Origin: Spongilla lacustris
Taxonomy: Eukaryota; Porifera; Demospongiae; Spongillida; Spongillidae
NCBI GenBank assembly: GCA_949361645.1
Contig: OX442423.1
Location: 1,467,502-1,531,501, forward strand
Length of the DNA: 64,000 bases
Direction of reading: 5' to 3'
The position numbers and the translations under genes were made by a program. Of this stretch, positions 26,301 to 57,590 are shown piece by piece (the stretch's first letter is position 1; the number at the start of each line of letters is the position of its first letter). Below the pieces are notes generated by a model that was not told the origin of the DNA, searched no databases, and worked only from the letters and a program-made list of their open reading frames with translations.

Positions 26301-26500
26301 NNNNNNNNNNNNNNNNNNNNNNNNNNNNNNNNNNNNNNNNNNNNNNNNNNNNNNNNNNNNNNNNNNNNNNNNNNNNNNNNNNNNNNNNNNNNNNNNNNNN
26401 NNNNNNNNNNNNNNNNNNNNNNNNNNNNNNNNNNNNNNNNNNNNNNNNNNNNNNNNNNNNNNNNNNNNNNNNNNNNNNNNNNNNNNNNNNNNNNNNNNNN
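26301..26500. other. Assembly gap, exactly 200 N
   Basis: A round 200-N block is a scaffolding placeholder, so true distance and even adjacency of the two sides are unknown. The left side lies inside the segmental duplication, a likely cause of the assembly break. Confidence 0.95.
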
Positions 26501-26965: not shown

Positions 26966-27168
26966 ATGTCGGACGAATCTACGCCTACGAGTCCCAGACC
27001 TGTTCCTCCTACTCCCAAAGACTTTTCTCCGCGCGATGTGGACGCCCGATCGCGCTCAAACACCATCCTTCTCAATAGGGACTCCAGACAGCTGCTAATT
27101 GGGATGGGATTTCCTAGTAGCAGAGCGTAAGTGCAGTCGTTCCCGCACTATGTTGTGCCAGGCCTTTC

Positions 27169-27240
<72 letters not shown>

Positions 27241-30200
27241 TGTGTGAAATGTGCATTCTATACGCGCGCGCGTTTGTGTATGTGTATGTGTGTGTGAAAT
27301 GTGCATTCTATACGCGTGCGCGTTTGTGTATGTGTATGTGTGTTTGCGCGCGCATGTGGTGCGTGCATGCATGTGTGTATGTGTATGTGTGTATATGAAT
27401 GTGTATGTATGTGTGGGTATGTGTGTGTACGTGTGTGTATGTTTGTGTGTGTATATAAGGAGGTAGTACAGGTATGCATGTTTAACATGCATGGCACAAC
27501 ATCCACCCACCCCCACCTTCCCTCTCCCTCCCACCATCATTTGGGGGGGCCTCCTAACACCAGCTAAGGGCTGATGTGTTTAGTGTAGGCATGCATACAA
27601 TGCCCCATACCACTGCTCAACACAGTAAGTGGTTTTTCATCTTCTTGTAGGACTTGACACATTCCTTAGCTGTGTGTGCAATGGCTCATCCAACACACCT
27701 CACCTCACAGGGGTGGTCATTCAACATAGTGGTGGTCATTCAACATACCTCACCTCACAGTTGTGGTCATCCAACACACCTCACCTCACAGTGGTGGTCA
27801 TTCAACAACACCTCACTTACAGTGGTGGTCATCACACCTCACCTCACAGTGGTGGTCATTCAACACAACCTCACCCCACAGTGGTGGTCATTCAACACAC
27901 CTCACCTCACAGTGGTGGTCAACCAACACACCTCACCTCACAGTGGTGGTCATTCAACACACCTCATGGTCATTTAATTGCTCACAAGTCAAACAGCCAC
28001 CACTGTGTTGAATGACCCGCCACAGTGAGGTGAGGTGTGTTGAATGACCACCACAGTGAGGTGAGGTGTGTTGGTTGACTACCCACTGTGAAGTGAGGTG
28101 TGTTGGATGACCACCACTGTGAGATGAGGTGTGTTGGATGACCATCACTGTGAGATGAGGTGTGTTGGATGACCACCATTGTGAGGTGAGGTGTGTTGAA
28201 TGACCACCACTGTGATGTGAGTGTGTGTTGAATGACCACCACTGTGAGGTGAGGTGTGTTGGATGACCACCACTGTGAGGTGAGGTGTTTTGGATGACCA
28301 CCACTGTGAGGCAAGGTGTGTTGGATGACCATCACTGTGAGGCAAGGTGTGTTGGATGACCACCACTGTGACCTTTGTTCTTGTTCCTCTGCAGTGAAAA
28401 AGCGTTAGCTGCAACTGGTGATCAGAACGTACAGGCAGCAGCTGATTGGTGAGTGGGGGGAACGCATGGGAAAGGTGGGGAGGGAGGAAATGTGGGTGGA
28501 AGCGTGTGTGCATGTAGCTTCAGTTTGTTTGGATAACCAAACTTCCCCAGGTGTTGGCGGGAAGTGATCAGCTGGTTTTGTGTGCGTGTTGATACGCATG
28601 TTGGGGTGGAAGGAAACACCTGGGGGTGTCCATGACAAGAGCCCACAGTTGGCTTTTCTAACCAGTGGTTTAAGAACAATGGTTATGTAGGGTATCTAGT
28701 CTGACCTACTATTGGTTACATTATGGCAACATAGTACCTCACCTCACAGTGGTGTGTCATACCAGACCCTATTCATAATTTGAGAGTGACAAGCCATAAT
28801 GCAAAATGACATCATGACATCATAACGACATAATGACATCATAACGACATAACCAGCCTAACTCCCAGCTTCCTAACCTGTGACTTACATACCCTCACTT
28901 TCCCTTCCTCACACCCTCCCTCCTACCCACTTCCTCCGTCTCACCTTCATTGGCTCCCCTCCCACCATCCCTTCCCCCTTTCCCTCCACCTTCCCCCCTC
29001 CCACCATCCCCTCCACTTTCCCCTCCCACCATCCCTTCCCCCTCCCCACCTTCCCCCTCCCACCATCCCCTCCACCTTCCCCCTCCCACCTTCCCTCCTC
29101 CCTACAGGTTGCTGTCACACGTTTTTTGATCCTGAATTGGATGCAAATGCCCCAAGAGAGTTCATCGTCTATGCCTGCCCTCTGGTGTGCTGGGTTCCCA
29201 GGTGGAAGAGTTTGCTGAGGTCACCCTGCTGACCTGTGGACGTAACGCTGTGGCACAAGTCCTTCCCGCACCTCACCCTCTGCCAGTTCTTTCAGGTACG
29301 AAATCTTAGCCTTTTGCCCCTACTAGGGAGGGGGGGGGGGGGCCCTTCCCATTGGCCATCCACTGGGGGCCCCTGCTCATTGCCCCTACTGGGGGGGCCC
29401 CCTTCCCATCGGCCATCCACTGGGGGCCCCTTCACATTGGCCATCCACTGGGGGCCCCTGCTCATTGCCCCTACTGGGGGGGCCCCCTTCCCATCGGCCC
29501 TGTGTTGGGGGCTGGAGCCCCAGGGCATTGTATCTCCACTATGGAGTACTTGCTCTACTTCCTTCACCTTTGGGGGAGGAGGGGGCTCTGCTCAATAACC
29601 TTGGGGAGTGCTTGGTTGTCAATTCCCCCTCTCCCCCTCCCCCCGGGGTGCCTATATAGGTACACTTGTACTGTTAATGCCAGGTAACTTTCCTAACACA
29701 GACCTGTTATGGACTAATGGAGTGCAGGCACATGTGGCATTTTAACTGCAGCTGTTAAATTGAGTGTCACAAAGGTCACTGTTGAAGGCCATTATCACTC
29801 CCTAGTATTTGGAAGTCTACACTGTGTCTGTACTTGTACTAACTTCCAAATTACAGTACATTTTTAAATGTTAAAATAGAAGTCATGTAAAAATAAAAGA
29901 ATGGGCCTGGTTGTAATTCTATGAAAATCCCACCTCCCCTCATGGGCAAATCACACTGTAATAGGGCACCCTTAGAGAAGCTCCGTGTTACACAAATGTT
30001 ACCTTTCTTGTCTCTGAACCTAGCATCTGTAACGTGCGGTAAAACCATTATGTAAACCAGGCATATACAAAGCCAAGCATACACAAAGCCAGGCATATAC
30101 AAAGCCAAGCATTCACTGTTGACAACTTATCGACACAAATCTTCTTGATTTTTGTCGTTCTGAACAGAAAGGCTGTCTATTTTCAGGTGGCATATTGCTC

Positions 30201-33200: not shown

Positions 33201-36200
33201 GAAGATCACAGTCCATCTTGCATGTACCACAGATTCCACCATGAACAGCGATTCCATGCAAATCAGTTGTTTAGTCAACTAGCATTAATACATTGCTACA
33301 ATTAAAAGCTCTTTTAATGGTTAATTAACTAAAGTCAAAATGAAACATTATGTATTAGGATGGCATAAGGACTTCATCTTGAAGTGGTGATCTTGATTTC
33401 ACTTAGCCCATATCAACTGTAAAATGTTTCCAACACTACTGTTAGCTCCCACATATCATGCCCTTATGCCATGTCCTGATGCCGTTCTCTTGTCACGCAG
33501 TGTCCTGATGCCATGCTCTTGTCACACAGTGTCCTGATGCCATTCTCTTGTCACGCAGTGTCCTGATGCCATGCTCTTGTTACACAGTGTCCTGATGCCA
33601 TGCTCTTGTCACACAGTGTCCTGATGCCATGCTCTTGTTACCCAGTGTCCTGATGCCATGCTCTTGTCACACAGTGTCCTGATGCCATGCTCTTGTCACA
33701 CAGTGTCCTGATGCCATGCTCTTGTCACACAGTGTCCTGATGCCATGCTCTTGTCACACAGTGTCCTGATGCCATGCTCTTGTCATGCATTGTCCTGATG
33801 CCATGCTCTTGTCACACAGTGTCCTGATGCCATGTTGCCCCACCTTCTTCATACTCTGAAGAGGTGCATCGAAGCGTCCATGTTGATAGCACCAAAGGAA
33901 ATCAAGCTGAAGAGGTACTCTACTCACAGCTATATAGGGCTGTTCATTGACGAAGAATCTGCGTCATGGTTCCGGAACATGATGGATGCGTTTGCTAGTG
34001 AAGCCAAGACGAGTGGTAAGGGAAGTAATCAGAAGGGGTGTGGCCTAAATGTGTGTGATCTGGTTAGAGGCTGTGATGTTACATAGGGAAGGTGGCAGTG
34101 TGTGTTGTTGTGTGTGTCTGTGTGTGTGTTTGTTGTGTGTGTGTTGTGTGTGTTTTGTGTGTTGTGTGTGTGTGTGTTGGGTGTTTTGTGTTTTGTGTGT
34201 TGTGTGTGCATGCACATTTGTGAAAATGATTGGCACCCCACCACCACCCCTTTTCCATCACAGGAAATTATCACTTCTCTGTGAGAAGTGATTATTGTTG
34301 CCTGTTTTTTAAATATATTTGTTCATTCAGCGGCTGGGCTGTTTTCCCTTAACTGTGCAATGTTTACTTGTAAGGGTGTTCAAATATGCATTTGTGGGTA
34401 TGCACACCTGGTACATGGAGAAGTCCTGTGGTCATATTACCAGATATGATCTGTGTGTTGATGCATTGCTTAAAAAGCCTGATAGAATTAAGGCGTCTGG
34501 CTTGGATTTATAGAATTCGTGTCTCTCCAAAAAAATGCAGATATTTGCTTGCTGTATTTCAAACAGCATGGGTGATATGGAATAATAACCACTTGGGCAA
34601 AGGTGTGCTCCAAATCAAGATGTATTGGAGTCACATATTAGAAGATCATTTGCACGGTTTTTTTTTTCTTTCAAAACCACCACCTCTACCCTATTCTAAT
34701 TATCCCACTCCCCACCCCAACTCCACTCTTCCCACTCCCCACCCCAACTCCACTCTTCTCACTCTCCACCCCAGCTCCACACTTCCCACTCCATCCCAGC
34801 TCCACTCTTCCCACTCCATCCCAGCTCCACTCTTCCCACTCCATCCCAGCTCCATTCATCCCACTCCACCCAACTCCACTCTTCCCACTCTCACCCTGCC
34901 CCCCCTCCCCCCCCCCCAACATGTACACGTACCACACAATGTGTTTCAGAATCCATTGTGTTTGAACACTTTTGGTCAACATACACCATGTGAGGGTTAG
35001 GATGGGGGAGGGTAGAGTTATATAGGGTGGGGAGAGTACCGCCCATTTTGAAAGACAATGGTGTGTAGCCAGCTTGTCCAAGCTGTGTGCTCTGTGTGTG
35101 GTTAGTTGTCCGTGTGTGGTCGATGGTTTGTGTCTACTTGTGAGGGCATGTCATCACGTCATCATTCAGGCGTGATTGTGAAGCCACACAGGAAGCAGCT
35201 GCATGTCACACTAGCCCACCAGTATCCCTCCGAACAGCAGTCCCATTTGGAGCAGTTGGCTCTGAACACAGTGGACCCAGCCTCCCCTGTGAAGTGGGAG
35301 CTGACGCTGTATTCCCGTGATCGTCGTCTGGCTTCTGCTGAGGTGGGGTGCGAGGAAGGGAGGATGGCAGGGGAGGGAGGGAGGGAGGATGTAGTGGGGA
35401 GGAGATGGAGTGGTGGTATGGGGAGGAGTGGTGGTATGGGGAGGAGTGATGGTATGGGGAGGAGTGATGGTATGGGGAGGAGTGATGGTATGGGGAGGAG
35501 TGATGGTATGGGGAGGAGTGATGGTATGGGGAGGAGTGATGGTATGGGGAGGAGTGATGGTATGGAGTGGAAGGTTGATGTGGGAATGCGGAGAGAAAAG
35601 AATGGATGGTGGGGAGAGGGAGGTGGAGTGTTGTGGCAAGGTGATATGGGTAATGTAGGAAGGGAGGGTGGACTGGGGAGGGGGAGGTGTGAGGGCGTGG
35701 TTTACTAACCCCGAGTCTCCTATGCTCTCTCTCCTCAGGTGTACAAGGTCTTGTATCCGTACCAGCCTCAGAAGGACGATGAACTGGAGCTGGTGGAGGG
35801 GGACTATGTGTATGTAAGCACTGCTGATGAAGGGAGGACAGGTAAATGTCTCCATTGTGTGTTTTTTTTTTTAATGCTGGGATTGGCCCATTGATGTTTG
35901 TTACCATATGTTGTTGTGTCGGGCCGATTGGTAAGCCATTTTGATGGCTTGGGGCAGATCAGCTCTATCAAAGATTAAAGACAGCTTACGGCCTTTTGTG
36001 CGCACGATTAATCATGCTGATGGAAGATGCTTTATTGAAAGATGCTTTAGTGGGGGGGGGTGTGTTGGCTACACTGCACCTCCCTCTAATTGGACATGAA
36101 TTATGCAGCTGTGGCTGTGTCTATGAGTGTTTGCACCTTTGTATTGACAAACACCACCCTTGCTGAGTGTTATAGCTGCTGCTCTGTTTACGGTCTGTCT

Positions 36201-37628
36201 CCCCTCAGAGAGTGAAGGGTGGTATTATGGCACCTCCCATCGCACTGGGGTCTCAGGCCTGTACCCTGGCAACTTTGTAGAGAAGGCCAAGGACTCTGAC
36301 TGTTGGGTTCTTCACCGGTACGTGATCTTTGGATGACTGCTGTTGTGCTCATCTGTAGTTCTACCCTAACCCCCTTCCCCACCCACCCCTTTACTCCACC
36401 CCTTTATGCCATCCCTCTCTGCTCCACCCCTTCCCCCACCCACCCATTGCTCCACCCCTCTGCTCCACCCTCTTTGCTCCACCCTCCCCATTGTGGTCTC
36501 ACTCCCACAACGTTTCTCCTTACCATGCCCCCTTTTTTGACTCACACCAGCTCGTGGCCTTTGATTGTAAATGCAGGGAAGCCATCTAACAGTAGTACAA
36601 TTGACAAACCGAGCACCCCTTCAGTGGCCGAGAGCAAGGTAGGTGACCCGTCCGCCACGGGTGAAGACAGGAACTCTCTCTACGTGGGGGCTGCCGGGCT
36701 CCTCCCCGATAGGAACAATGTAGAACGCCTCTATGCCAAGGTCGACAAGAAGCGCAAAGACGAAGCGAGCATCAGCTCGGACACAAGCGAGGAAGGAGGG
36801 GAGGGACCCCCACTTCCCGCATATGGTCCAAGAAGACTCTTTATCTGCCGTCACGCGGAGAGGGTGGACGTCACCTTCGGGAAGCAGTGGATATCGCTGT
36901 CGTTTGACACCAACGGGTTCTACACACGCAGGAACCTTAACATGCCAAGGGACATACCGAAGAGGAAGGGTGGACCTAACGACTTTGCCAAGGACTCCCC
37001 CATAACGGAGATGGGCGTGCACCAGGCCAAGCTCACGGGGGAGGGCATGAGGGAGCAGGGGATACGCCTGTCTCACGTCTTCTGTTCCCCAGCCCTGCGC
37101 TGCGTGCAGACAGCAGACGCCATCTTGAAGGGTCTGCAGGAGACCAGCCTGAAGATCAGGATTGAGAACGGCATGTTCGAGTGGCTCGCTTGGTGTCAGG
37201 GGGGTTTTCCCCCTCCCTTCATGACCCCAGCCGAACTGGCCAAGTTTGGTTTGCAGGTTGACACCTCCTACAAGTCCCAAGTTTCCCTCCAGGACCTGAA
37301 GCCCAACGAAACCCACCTTGAGTTCTACAAGAGGATGGTGAACCTGACGAAGCTGTTGTTGAAGATGGTGGGGCCCGCCGCTGGGAATATTATGTTTGTG
37401 GGGCACGCGGCGACCCTCGAGGCCTGCACGCGTCAGCTCGTTGGAGCCCACCCCTGCAGCCTGCAGGATCTGACCAAGCTGGTCCAGAAGGTGCCCTACT
37501 GCGGGATGTGCGTTTGCCAGGAGAGCGAGTCGGGGGGAAAGTCGTCCACGTGGGACTTCATCGATCCACCCATCCCTCCACTTACTCATGCCCCCAACGT
37601 AAGATTTGATTGGCGTTGTATGCAGTGA
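26966..37628 (+). CDS. UBASH3: UBASH3/STS-type protein: UBA, 2H-phosphoesterase-like, SH3 and histidine-phosphatase domains
   Basis: Exons: 26,966-27,126; 28,395-28,448; 29,108-29,295; 33,820-34,015; 35,170-35,342; 35,739-35,841; 36,209-36,317; 36,551-37,628. The expected product is about 686 aa (vertebrate family members about 650). Order: a UBA domain split over exons 1-2 (IGMGFPSSRAEKALAATGD); a 2H-phosphoesterase-like region with HLTLCQFF and KQLHVTLA motifs; SH3 (VLYPYQPQKDDELELVEGD, then GLYPGNFVEK); and a phosphoglycerate-mutase-like phosphatase wholly inside exon 8. The phosphatase keeps CRHAERVDVTFG, SPALRCVQTA and VGHAATLEA, that is both catalytic histidines and the arginines, so it should be active. 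In vertebrates these proteins dampen tyrosine-kinase signalling in the cytoplasm and bind ubiquitin. Exon 3 has three frame breaks, net +1 (see findings). Introns 1, 3 and 5 are filled with tandem repeats. Confidence 0.92.
27171..27460. repeat. GT microsatellite with degenerate tail, UBASH3 intron 1
   Basis: About 30 uninterrupted GT units, then two copies of a unit beginning GAAATGTGCATTCTATACGC, then mixed GTAT-rich DNA. Long open frames on both strands here are artefacts of the repeat. Confidence 0.9.
27695..28372. repeat. Inverted minisatellite (two opposed arrays of one 31-bp-type unit), UBASH3 intron 1
   Basis: From 27,695 to 27,966 about nine units read CACCTCACAGTGGTGGTCATTC. From about 28,008 to 28,372 about eleven units read the reverse complement (GACCACCACTGTGAGGTGAG). 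The centre is about 45 bp. A single stray unit lies at 28,735. In the pre-mRNA the two halves could pair over about 270 bp. Confidence 0.9.
29325..29515. repeat. GC-rich short tandem repeats, UBASH3 intron 3
   Basis: Alternating blocks of GGCCATCCACTGGGGGCCCC and TTGCCCCTACTGGGGGGGCC, about six units. It lies directly after exon 3. Confidence 0.75.
29700..30890. other. Intron 3 unique sequence
   Basis: AT-richer spacer. The only repeat is CAAAGCCAAGCATA / CAAAGCCAGGCATA at about 30,065-30,110. No gene supported. Confidence 0.5.
30893..31608. repeat. 23-bp minisatellite, about 31 units, UBASH3 intron 3
   Basis: The unit is CCCCTACCTCTTGCCCAATAGTA with minor variants. Each unit has a pyrimidine tract followed by CAATAG, so it resembles a weak 3' splice site. 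Confidence 0.95.
32040..32655. repeat. CACCACATACCCACATGCCCCCATG-type minisatellite, UBASH3 intron 3
   Basis: Variable units of about 20-31 bp built from CCAACACCACATACC and CACATGCCCCCATGTT. It gives long low-complexity frames on both strands that are not genes. Confidence 0.9.
32772..33043. repeat. 21-bp minisatellite, 13 units, UBASH3 intron 3
   Basis: The unit is GTAGCTTATACCATACCTGG (T follows), with A/G variation near its end. The length is a multiple of three, so frames stay open on both strands. Confidence 0.95.
33472..33834 (+). repeat. 13-copy 29-bp array of the intron 3 / exon 4 splice junction
   Basis: TGTCCTGATGCC recurs at 33,472 and every 29 bp to 33,820, where it becomes the start of exon 4 (C-P-D-A-M in frame). 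Each unit is the 14-base intron end CTCTTGTCACACAG plus the first 15 exon bases. Eleven copies, including the genuine one, have an AG directly before TGTCC. Copy 1 and copy 12 (GCAT) do not. Confidence 0.95.
34085..34215. repeat. TG-rich microsatellite, UBASH3 intron 4
   Basis: Degenerate GTGTTTTGTGTGTTGTG repeats about 70 bp after the exon 4 donor. No coding support. Confidence 0.85.
34690..34915. repeat. Pyrimidine-rich tandem repeat, UBASH3 intron 4
   Basis: Units of CAGCTCCACTCTTCCCACTCC type, about ten, followed by a C-run. Confidence 0.85.
35408..35572. repeat. 18-bp minisatellite, about nine units, UBASH3 intron 5
   Basis: The unit is GGTATGGGGAGGAGTGAT. It begins about 65 bp after the exon 5 donor. 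Confidence 0.9.
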
Positions 37629-41500: not shown

Positions 41501-43046
41501 GAGGGAAGGGCCAAAGATGGTGTTCACATTTTAACCCCCTTGCAGACCTCCTAGTCCACTTCTAGACAGTGTCAGAGAGAAACACTCCGATTTTGACCAA
41601 CTAGGAACAGATTTTAATGCATCACTTCGAGGATCGGAGCTCACTGATGTGGTCTTTCTTGTTGGTGAGCATGTACCCTCTCCCGTAGGTACCTCCTCCA
41701 TATTCATGAACATTATATCTCTCACCAGGTGAGGATCAGTCACCTATCTATGCTGTTAAGGCTGTTCTCTGCTGTCGAAACCGGTAAGAACCCCATTGGT
41801 GCATGTCAGTAAGAACCCCATTGGTGCATGTAGGTAAGAAGCCCATTGGTGCTTGTCAGTAAGAACCCCATTGGTGCATGTCAGTAAGAACCCCATTGGT
41901 GCATGTCAGTAAGAACCCCATTGGTGCATGTCAGTAAGAACCCCATTGGTGCATGTTGGTAAGAACCCCATTGGTGCATGTCAGTAAGAACCCCATTGGT
42001 GCATGTCAGTAAGAACCCCATTGGTGCATGTTGGTAAGAACCCCATTGGTGCATGTTGGTAAGAACCCCATTGGTGCTTGCCGGTAAGAACCCCATTGGT
42101 CCATTGGTGCATGTAACAAGCAATGAGTATACCATAGTGGCTGTGTTGGGACGTTGGAGTACAACCTTACGGGAGTGTTTTGGATCATCTGTTTGCACAC
42201 TGTGTTGCCTGTAGCTGTGTCGACATCCTGAACCCATATGACCTTCCCAGGCTTTCCCTAGTAGCTTTTTTGGAGCCATGTTTTGAGCTGTTTGCATGTT
42301 CTGTTATTAGTATGTATATGTGACATATCACATGACCGATCCCTGTGGTATCACATGACCAGTATTATCTGACCAATAGTATCTATTACACGAGCAATGT
42401 CTGTGTCCTGACCTTTTTCTTTTGTGTGTGGACAGAGTCTTCAGGCACATGTTAAAAGATGGCAGCTCTCCTTTTAGTCCAATGAGCCGCAAACGTTTTG
42501 CTAGCTCTCCTTCCTCCAACCACCACATGAGTCCTCGGTTCGGCAGAAAGGGGACTGCTCTAGGTGCCAAGCCTTCCCGCCTCCCCCTCTCGGGAGGGAG
42601 GAAGAAGGATGACCTACAGTCCAAGGCACTGCTGAGTGACCTAGCCTCCCCTCAAGAATTGCTGGAGGAGCAATGCAGTCTGATCCCCAAGGATAAGGTG
42701 TGCATGTGACCTTCCCTTACACCCTCCTCCACTCACACCCTTACCCCACTTGCATCCTTTCCCCCTCCCAATACTACACCCTCCCCTCCTCCACTTCAGT
42801 CCTTCACACACAATGACACACACACACAGTGACACACACACACAGTGACACACACACACAGTGACACACACACACAGTGACACACACACACAGTGACACA
42901 CACACACAGTGACACACACACACAGTGACACACACACACAGTGACACACACACACAGTGACACACACACACAGTGACACACACACACAGTGACACACACA
43001 CACAGTGACACACACACACAGTGACACACACACACAGTGACACACA

Positions 43047-44848: not shown

Positions 44849-53573
<8,725 letters not shown>

Positions 53574-55574: not shown

Positions 55575-57590
55575 TGACCAATTGCAGTGGGATGTACCTT
55601 TCGTCGTCTAGCTGCTAAGTGTGCTAGCATGACAGTTATGGAGCGCACGGGTGCTTTACTATCCCCAGTTCAACTTGGGTATGGCACTCCCCTGGGTGCA
55701 GAAGCTGCTGCCCACTCTGCTAGACGTTACCTTGCTGACCTCCATCCAGATCATGTCATCCTCAAGCTAGACTTCAAGAATGCATTTAACAGCATAAGGA
55801 GGGATAAAATGCTTGAAGTTGCTAAGCTACACACCCCAGAGCTGTTCCCCTTTATCTACCCTGCTATTCAGCCTCTTCTTCCCTCTATTTTCATGACACC
55901 ATCATCAGCTCTGCAGAAGGGGTACAACAAGGTGACCCTCTTGGTCTTTTGTTGTTCTGCCTTGTTATCTTTCCTTTGACACAGATGTTACGTTCTGAGT
56001 TTTGTATATTCTACCTTGATGATGCAACCTTAGGTGGCAATGAGGCAGATGTATGTGATGATTTTAAGATGATTGAAAGAGAAGCTGCTGCCGTTGGTCT
56101 GGAGCTTAACCATCACAAATCAGAACTCATCTGTGCAGATCAAGCTGGTCTTGCTCTTTTGCAGCTGGCACCTGACCTTTGTAGAGTCAGGCCCAACACT
56201 GCCACTTTGCTGGGCTCACCAATTGGTTCGTCTGTTGATGAAGCATTGCTCGATATAGTGGAAGCACTCAGGAAAATGAAATCTCGCCTGAGCCTCCTGA
56301 GCAGCCAGGATGCCTTGATTCTGCTCCGCCACTCATTTGCCATCCCTAAGATTTTGTATATCCTCAGGACAGCTCCTTGTCTTACATCTCCTTGCTTGGC
56401 GGTTTATGATGCTGAATTGCGCAGCACTCTGACTGAAGTTCTGAATATTGATTTTTCTTGTGAGTAAGCTTGGTCCCAGGCCACTCTGCCAGTCTGTTTT
56501 GGTGGTATTGGGGTTCGTAGAGCTTCTCAGCTTGCACCTTCTGCCTTCTTGGCCTCAGCTGCTGGTTCCTACGACCTCATCAACCAAATTTTGCCTGCTC
56601 GGTTTTCTGACATTCCATACTTAGCTGTTGATGCCGCTGTTATTCAGTGGAGAGAGGGTCACAACAATCCACCTCCTGTTTCCCCTTCATCTTCCAGACA
56701 AAAGGCATGGGACCTCCCTCACGTGGAAGAGACATATGTTCAGCTCCTACAAGGTGCCTCTGACTGCAGGTCTCGTGCCAGGTTACTGGCTGCAGCCACT
56801 AAAGAGTCTGGGGCCTGGTTGCATGCCCTCCCTGTCTCTTCCCTAGGCCTGCGAATGGATGATCACACAACCAGGATAGCTGTTGGTCTCCGTCTGGGTA
56901 CACCTGTCTGCCAACCCCACATCTGCCACCACTGTGGAGGCCATGTTGATGCCCTCGCTACTCATGGGCTCAGCTGCATCAAAAGCCAAGGTCGTTTTTC
57001 AAGACATGCTGCTATCAATGCCATCATACATAGGTCTCTAGCAGCAATTAATGCTCCATCCACACTTGAACCCATCGGCCTATACAGATCAGATGGCAAG
57101 CGACCTGATGGTTGTTCCATTGCCCCATGGAAATCTGGCCAGTGTCTTGTTTGGGACTTTACTTGTGTGGACACCTTCGCAGCCTCATACATAGCAGATG
57201 CCACAAGGGAAGCTAGAGCTGTAGCCACAGCTGCTGAAGCCAGGAAGAAGGAGAAATATGCTCTGCTATCCAAATCCCACCATTTTGTACCAATTGCGAT
57301 TGAGACCTCAGGTGCCCTTGGCCCTGATGCTCTCAGTTTGCTCACTGATATAAGCAGGCGTCAGCAGAGCATCACACACAATCATCAGTCCCTCTCATTC
57401 CTTCTCCAGAGAGTATCAATTGCACTACAGCACGGCAATGCTGCCTCTGTATTGGGCACCACAATTAGCGTGTAGTGTATATAGTGCATGTATCCCTATA
57501 TCAGTGTATTTGTGTATGTCCATTTATCCCGTTTCTAATTTAAAAAAATAAAAAAATAAAAAGTAAATTCATTTATTTATTTATTTATAT
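55575..57590 (+). pseudogene. 5'-truncated non-LTR retroelement: reverse transcriptase plus zinc finger and nuclease-like domain
   Basis: Homology starts abruptly inside RT motif 1 (PIAVGCTFRRLAAK, preceded by TGA where Arg is usual). It continues through KLDFKNAFNSIRRD, VQQGDPLG and the catalytic FYLDDATLGG. A frameshift near 55,912 separates the KLDFKNAF part from the VQQGDPLG part, and a TAA at 56,465-56,467 interrupts the frame before LPVCFGGIGVRRASQLAP. The C-terminal part has a C-x2-C-x8-H-x4-C knuckle (CHHCGGHVDALATHGLSC), then KRPDG and VWDFTCVDTF, like the PD-(D/E)xK endonuclease of R2/NeSL-type elements. It ends in a short 3' UTR with an A-rich tail (57,540-57,565) and (TTTA)n. The 5' truncation plus A-rich end fits target-primed insertion. 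This copy cannot be autonomous. Confidence 0.85.

Follow-up and report, generated by a model that had tools for sequence, protein, structure and literature searches.

A 29-bp minisatellite across the intron 3 acceptor of a sponge UBASH3 gene, probably a tolerated repeat expansion

Introduction

Minisatellite-like duplications of intron-exon boundaries are described for the globin genes of amphioxus, where they were named mirages after those of Adh3; they occur at either boundary, many of their units keep AG or GT, and splicing was found to be regular by RT-PCR (PMC3087553). Further amphioxus mirages are described in TnC and PGBD5 (PMC3902484), and regular splicing of such genes is the picture given by both accounts (PMC3087553, PMC3902484). 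Internal tandem repeats at exon-intron boundaries are also described for human genes in segmental duplications (PMC2812944). Short direct repeats near introns are the subject of another account (PMC11782384). No report of boundary-spanning arrays in sponges was found in the open-licence literature.

The window analyzed here (the whole stretch of 64,000 nucleotides of Spongilla lacustris DNA) contains a UBASH3 gene, and the acceptor of its intron 3 lies in a tandem array which, as judged from the nucleotide sequence, has the structural features of a mirage. The short units contain the boundary together with bases of both sides (14 of the intron and 15 of the exon), and the genuine boundary, as placed by the protein join, falls into the last copy at the edge, the other copies lying in the intron. 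As in BflGb6 of amphioxus, the tandem units span the splice boundary so that intron tail and exon start are repeated together; as among the amphioxus mirages in general, donor and acceptor cases both exist, AG or GT is present in many units, and the genuine site is found at the edge of the array. The unit size differs, being 29 bp in sponge UBASH3 versus 150-160 bp in BflGb6 and 10-72 bp in Adh3. Moreover, the amphioxus genes belong to another phylum, and regular splicing as well as length instability were shown there, whereas the sponge array is known from DNA alone; homology between the two is not expected. With the human boundary repeats, the sponge array shares the principle that extra splice sites can arise from repeats across a boundary. 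There, however, alternative transcripts and new introns are described in duplicated genes (PMC2812944), whereas the extra sites of the sponge gene give stops, and UBASH3 is not known as such a duplicate.

Tandem duplication of a stretch holding AGGT is a known route of intron gain, which the sponge array resembles in that the duplicated stretch holds a splice signal. It differs in that UBASH3 has not acquired a new intron and in that the donor of intron 3 (TTTCAG/GTACGA) is, by eye, unlike the unit. With CAGTTCTTTCAG flanking GTACGA at this donor, intron gain by tandem duplication, which would require that both ends of the intron stem from copies of one unit, was rejected as a description of the locus.

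Results

Position of the genuine junction

UBASH3 was found to comprise eight exons when the window was searched (tblastn) with the homologue P0060 (Table 1). This protein (685 residues, full length, 82% identical) is encoded on a contig of 2,895 bases from the source 'lgn'. Judging by its length and its open frame, this contig appears to be a transcript assembled from a related freshwater sponge. The three parts that define membership in UBASH3, namely UBA, SH3, and histidine phosphatase, were found to belong to one gene: His_Phos_1 and SH3 were recognized in the window exons (exon 1 alone gave no family), and each of the eight exons matches P0060, for which UBA, SH3, and PF00300 are among the Pfam domains listed and UBASH3B is the best PDB match. 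Exon 4 alone gave no match when compared with solved structures.

P0060 is contiguous across the junction of exons 3 and 4 (CQFFQ/CPDAM; CQFFQCPDAMLPQLL). Of the 59 homologues returned by the search, 38 contain both a CQFF-like and a YIGLF-like motif; the other 21, many of them partial, were without one or both. Among the 38 with both motifs, the spacing between them is 38 residues in 33, and a cysteine stands two residues after FF in 32. The join of exon 3 to exon 4 in the window results in a spacing of 38 residues as well. Exon 4 begins at TGT (Cys) of the last copy, and its first 15 bases are the final half-unit of the array. A preliminary description of this DNA had placed the conserved Cys after CQFF at exactly this TGT, with the consequence that the repeat includes coding sequence, and both the spacing and the uninterrupted P0060 bear this out. 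By protein conservation, only the last copy is predicted to give the normal UBASH3 protein. The UBASH3 model of E. muelleri (P0062, Em0006g1174a) has its first residues (MPCYPQLL...) precisely where exon 4 begins, as though this junction had defeated gene prediction there, too.

Table 1. Features of the UBASH3 locus and of the BTB gene (window coordinates)
Feature	Position	Strand	Remarks
UBASH3 exons 1 and 2	about 26966-27126, 28395-28448		tblastn, P0060 versus window
UBASH3 exon 3	29108..29295	+	tblastn; ends HLTLCQFFQ, then donor GTACGA; reading frame interrupted in this assembly
29-bp tandem array	33472..33834	+	12 full units plus 15 bases; each unit is the exonic half (15 bases), then the intron tail (14 bases)
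Decoy AG acceptors (n = 10)	33499..33761	+	one closing each of units 1 to 10, spacing 29 bases
End of unit 11	33789..33790	+	AT replacing AG; decoy closest to the genuine acceptor lost
CTGAT, candidate branch point	33795..33799	+	21 nt before the genuine AG, no AG between; CTGAT in all units
Genuine AG acceptor, UBASH3 intron 3	33818..33819	+	end of unit 12; placed by protein join and spacing
UBASH3 exon 4	33820..34015	+	tblastn; CPDAMLPHLL..., then donor GTAAGG
UBASH3 exons 5 to 8	about 35170-35342, 35739-35841, 36209-36317, 36551-37625		tblastn, P0060 versus window
5′ splice-site array, BTB gene	41784..42104	+	GTAAGAA 13 times, 25 bp apart; first copy is the donor

Structure of the array

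The array was scored by TRF at 12.5 copies (score 649), and its 29-bp register is free of indels throughout, as had been claimed. The 13 copies counted before hold for the exonic half of the unit, whereas the full units number 12. Nor are the copies exact: the consensus (TGTCCTGATGCCATGCTCTTGTCACACAG) is matched fully by 7 of the 12 full units, while units 1, 3, 4, 6, and 11 carry 3, 2, 1, 2, and 3 changed bases, respectively (11 substitutions in total). With 11 mismatches in 348 bases and a score of 649, the similarity from unit to unit is far beyond chance. AG closes 11 of the 12 full units (1 to 10 and 12), in agreement with the eleven AG-retaining copies reported before, the genuine one included; because unit 11 lost its AG and ends in AT, the next AG upstream of the genuine acceptor is 58 nt away. 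A search that scores the best candidates only, and skips common words, found the array sequence at one place in its own genome. The copy number is that of one assembly alone. Just before the array (33455-33471), an apparent degenerate and shortened extra copy of the unit (ATCATGCCCTTATGCCA) was noticed by eye.

Predicted consequences of using the upstream copies

When translation is continued from 33820, the correct frame is open. When it is continued from the 10 upstream starts preceded by AG, or from the first start (after CA), the 22nd codon is a stop in each case, and for the upstream start after the AT of unit 11 it is the 23rd. The premature stop previously predicted for any upstream acceptor was therefore encountered from all 12 upstream starts, and since any upstream choice meets a stop, only the last copy is expected to be productive. 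CTGAT occurs 13 times in the array; it is a candidate branch point on the basis of the animal consensus. Of 25 introns, 12 had a branch-point motif (YTNAY) 12-42 nt upstream of their end, compared with 6 of 17 at a control distance, which is not a clear enrichment. RNA of the array folds more weakly than 100 out of 100 shuffles (z 6.8). Thus, the decoys look accessible, and their masking by RNA folding was rejected.

A donor array and the gene neighborhood

An array at a 5′ splice site is present in a BTB gene of the same window (Table 1). The join RNR/VFRHML restores the reading frame and sits inside the BTB match; any later donor would lead to an immediate TAA. A GPCR reading frame of the window best matches Em0006g1169a (79% identical), UBASH3 matches Em0006g1174a, and CFAP91 matches Em0006g1171a. 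As 'Em' loci are those of Ephydatia muelleri (PMC7385117), the neighborhood is common to both species. Intron 12 of CFAP91 (49361-49438) is 78 nt long, a multiple of three, and stop-free; its retention would add 26 residues, which the E. muelleri protein does not have. Between two GPCR genes, long open frames (55578-57472) resemble, in our reading, reverse transcriptase; Pfam gave no family for 56468-57472.

Minisatellites in the surrounding introns

Within the 25 mapped introns of the window (7 of UBASH3, 17 of CFAP91, and 1 of the BTB gene), 27 arrays cover 6,645 of 15,801 bases (42%; 38 bases are counted twice owing to two overlapping arrays). UBASH3 introns 2 and 3 and CFAP91 introns 2 and 3 were set by eye, and three of these four exon ends were one base off in this coverage count. 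Lengths range from 48 to 524 nt among the 10 introns that are free of arrays and from 100 to 4,524 nt among the 15 that contain them. In a sample of the genome (20 stretches of 10 kb), 62 arrays extend over 27,528 of 200,000 bases. Splice motifs were not clearly enriched in array units generally: among 76 arrays, 21 contained the 5′ motif (15.8 expected, P 0.06) and four the 3′ motif (5.5 expected).

Placement of the arrays relative to the splice sites was compared with random placement, for which one of the two overlapping arrays was left out and the UBASH3 array was truncated at the exon boundary. An array edge was found within 3 nt of the donor in 3 of the 15 array-bearing window introns (0.47 expected, P 0.009), or in 4 of 17 (0.70 expected, P 0.004) when two introns of a sampled stretch (L014, contig C5) were added. 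The corresponding acceptor-side count of 1 was not significant (0.47 expected in the window, 0.70 with the added introns). As four distances were tried and the donor excess fades at 8, 15, and 25 nt (P 0.05 to 0.41), array edges hugging the donor are a hint only. Among the mapped junctions, the UBASH3 array is the only counted array entering an exon. A weak array of 2.4 copies (35343-35404), which is below the copy-number limit and in none of the counts, coincides at its start with the intron 5 donor of UBASH3, and in CFAP91 intron 6 an array of GAGTGTGGAGCATGG (46177-46477; 19.9 copies, 97%) begins at the third base of the intron.

L014 had been chosen as the array-richest of the 20 sampled stretches and as one with coding frames; parts of an ankyrin-repeat gene were mapped in it, for which ZDHHC17 is among the PDB matches, behind designed and other ankyrin proteins. 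In this gene (L014:2618-3601), one array has the A of an acceptor AG as its last base and another starts at base three of an intron. A third ends 8 nt before an acceptor; its units, by eye, repeat CTGAC and a pyrimidine stretch without that AG.

Discussion

The UBASH3 array is probably a minisatellite expansion that serves no function in itself, with the last acceptor kept in use by exon definition and by the stops. In a genome with many arrays in its introns, the 29-bp stretch across the acceptor would have undergone tandem duplication, and slippage or unequal exchange would then have raised the number of copies. All units have the candidate branch point CTGAT and a stretch rich in pyrimidines, and all but unit 11 have an AG; each would thus be a complete acceptor. 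In S. lacustris, splicing would mainly use the last copy, which adjoins the body of the exon and its donor; as the local signals are alike in most units, this position is the likeliest reason for its use. RNAs with a premature stop are usually degraded, and RNA mis-spliced at upstream copies would presumably decay in this way. A tolerated expansion with only the last copy productive was one of two options offered in the preliminary description, and it is favored by the spacing (33 of 38 homologues and the join in the window), the contiguous P0060, and the stops after the 10 AG decoys. The abundance of minisatellites in the mapped introns and the sampled stretches, the multiplied donor of the BTB gene, and the regular splicing of amphioxus mirages (PMC3087553, PMC3902484) point the same way. 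The branch-point reading is weak, which was counted against this explanation, as were the lack of a clear enrichment of splice motifs in array units, a donor excess confined to the 3-nt distance, and the interrupted exon 3.

The other option was that decoy acceptors tune UBASH3 output. Upstream splicing would then claim a considerable proportion of the transcripts, depending on copy number, and these would meet the stop and be lost; UBASH3 output would fall as repeats are added, perhaps under selection. In favor of this are ten intact decoys that match the genuine site in their local signals, are each followed by a stop, and lie in RNA less structured than any of 100 shuffles. Arrays fill many introns of this region, however, so no special cause is needed and the case for a purpose of this one is weakened; duplicated acceptors of amphioxus, furthermore, are described as leaving splicing undisturbed (PMC3087553). 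We therefore regard this option as very unlikely. Were the repeat number to set the share of UBASH3 pre-mRNA lost to stop-containing splicing, the unstable minisatellite would be a heritable, perhaps somatically varying dial on a sponge phosphatase gene, and splice-site arrays genome-wide would amount to a whole class of splicing dials that vary in length. This reading as a whole appears highly improbable.

Exon 3 occupies three different frames relative to P0060, which may reflect either consensus errors or a decaying gene. If the latter applied, constraint on UBASH3 would be relaxed, with a decaying gene or a non-productive allele carried by this individual and the array as debris in an unselected gene. 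The other seven exons, however, are open and close to P0060, and an assembly gap (26301-26500) lies about 2.6 kb from exon 3, which makes consensus errors plausible despite the high stated quality of the assembly (QV 53.6; PMC12141999); decay is thus an unlikely origin of the array. The same gap, about 7 kb from the array, and a copy number taken from one assembly only might also raise the suspicion that the repeat or its copy number is erroneous. Yet the units are distinguished by individual substitutions, and the array, at 363 bp, is part of an assembly described as built from HiFi long reads (estimated 34x; PMC12141999), so an artefact is extremely unlikely.

Taken as a tolerated expansion, which it probably is, the array represents a case of an already described kind, the boundary-spanning minisatellite known from lancelets. 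With a sponge now added to amphioxus, for which they are described, such minisatellites have probably originated more than once, and they may be a general feature of genomes in which introns are rich in minisatellites. Eleven acceptors of the same local sequence, with position alone differing, also offer a natural experiment on acceptor choice by the splicing machinery.
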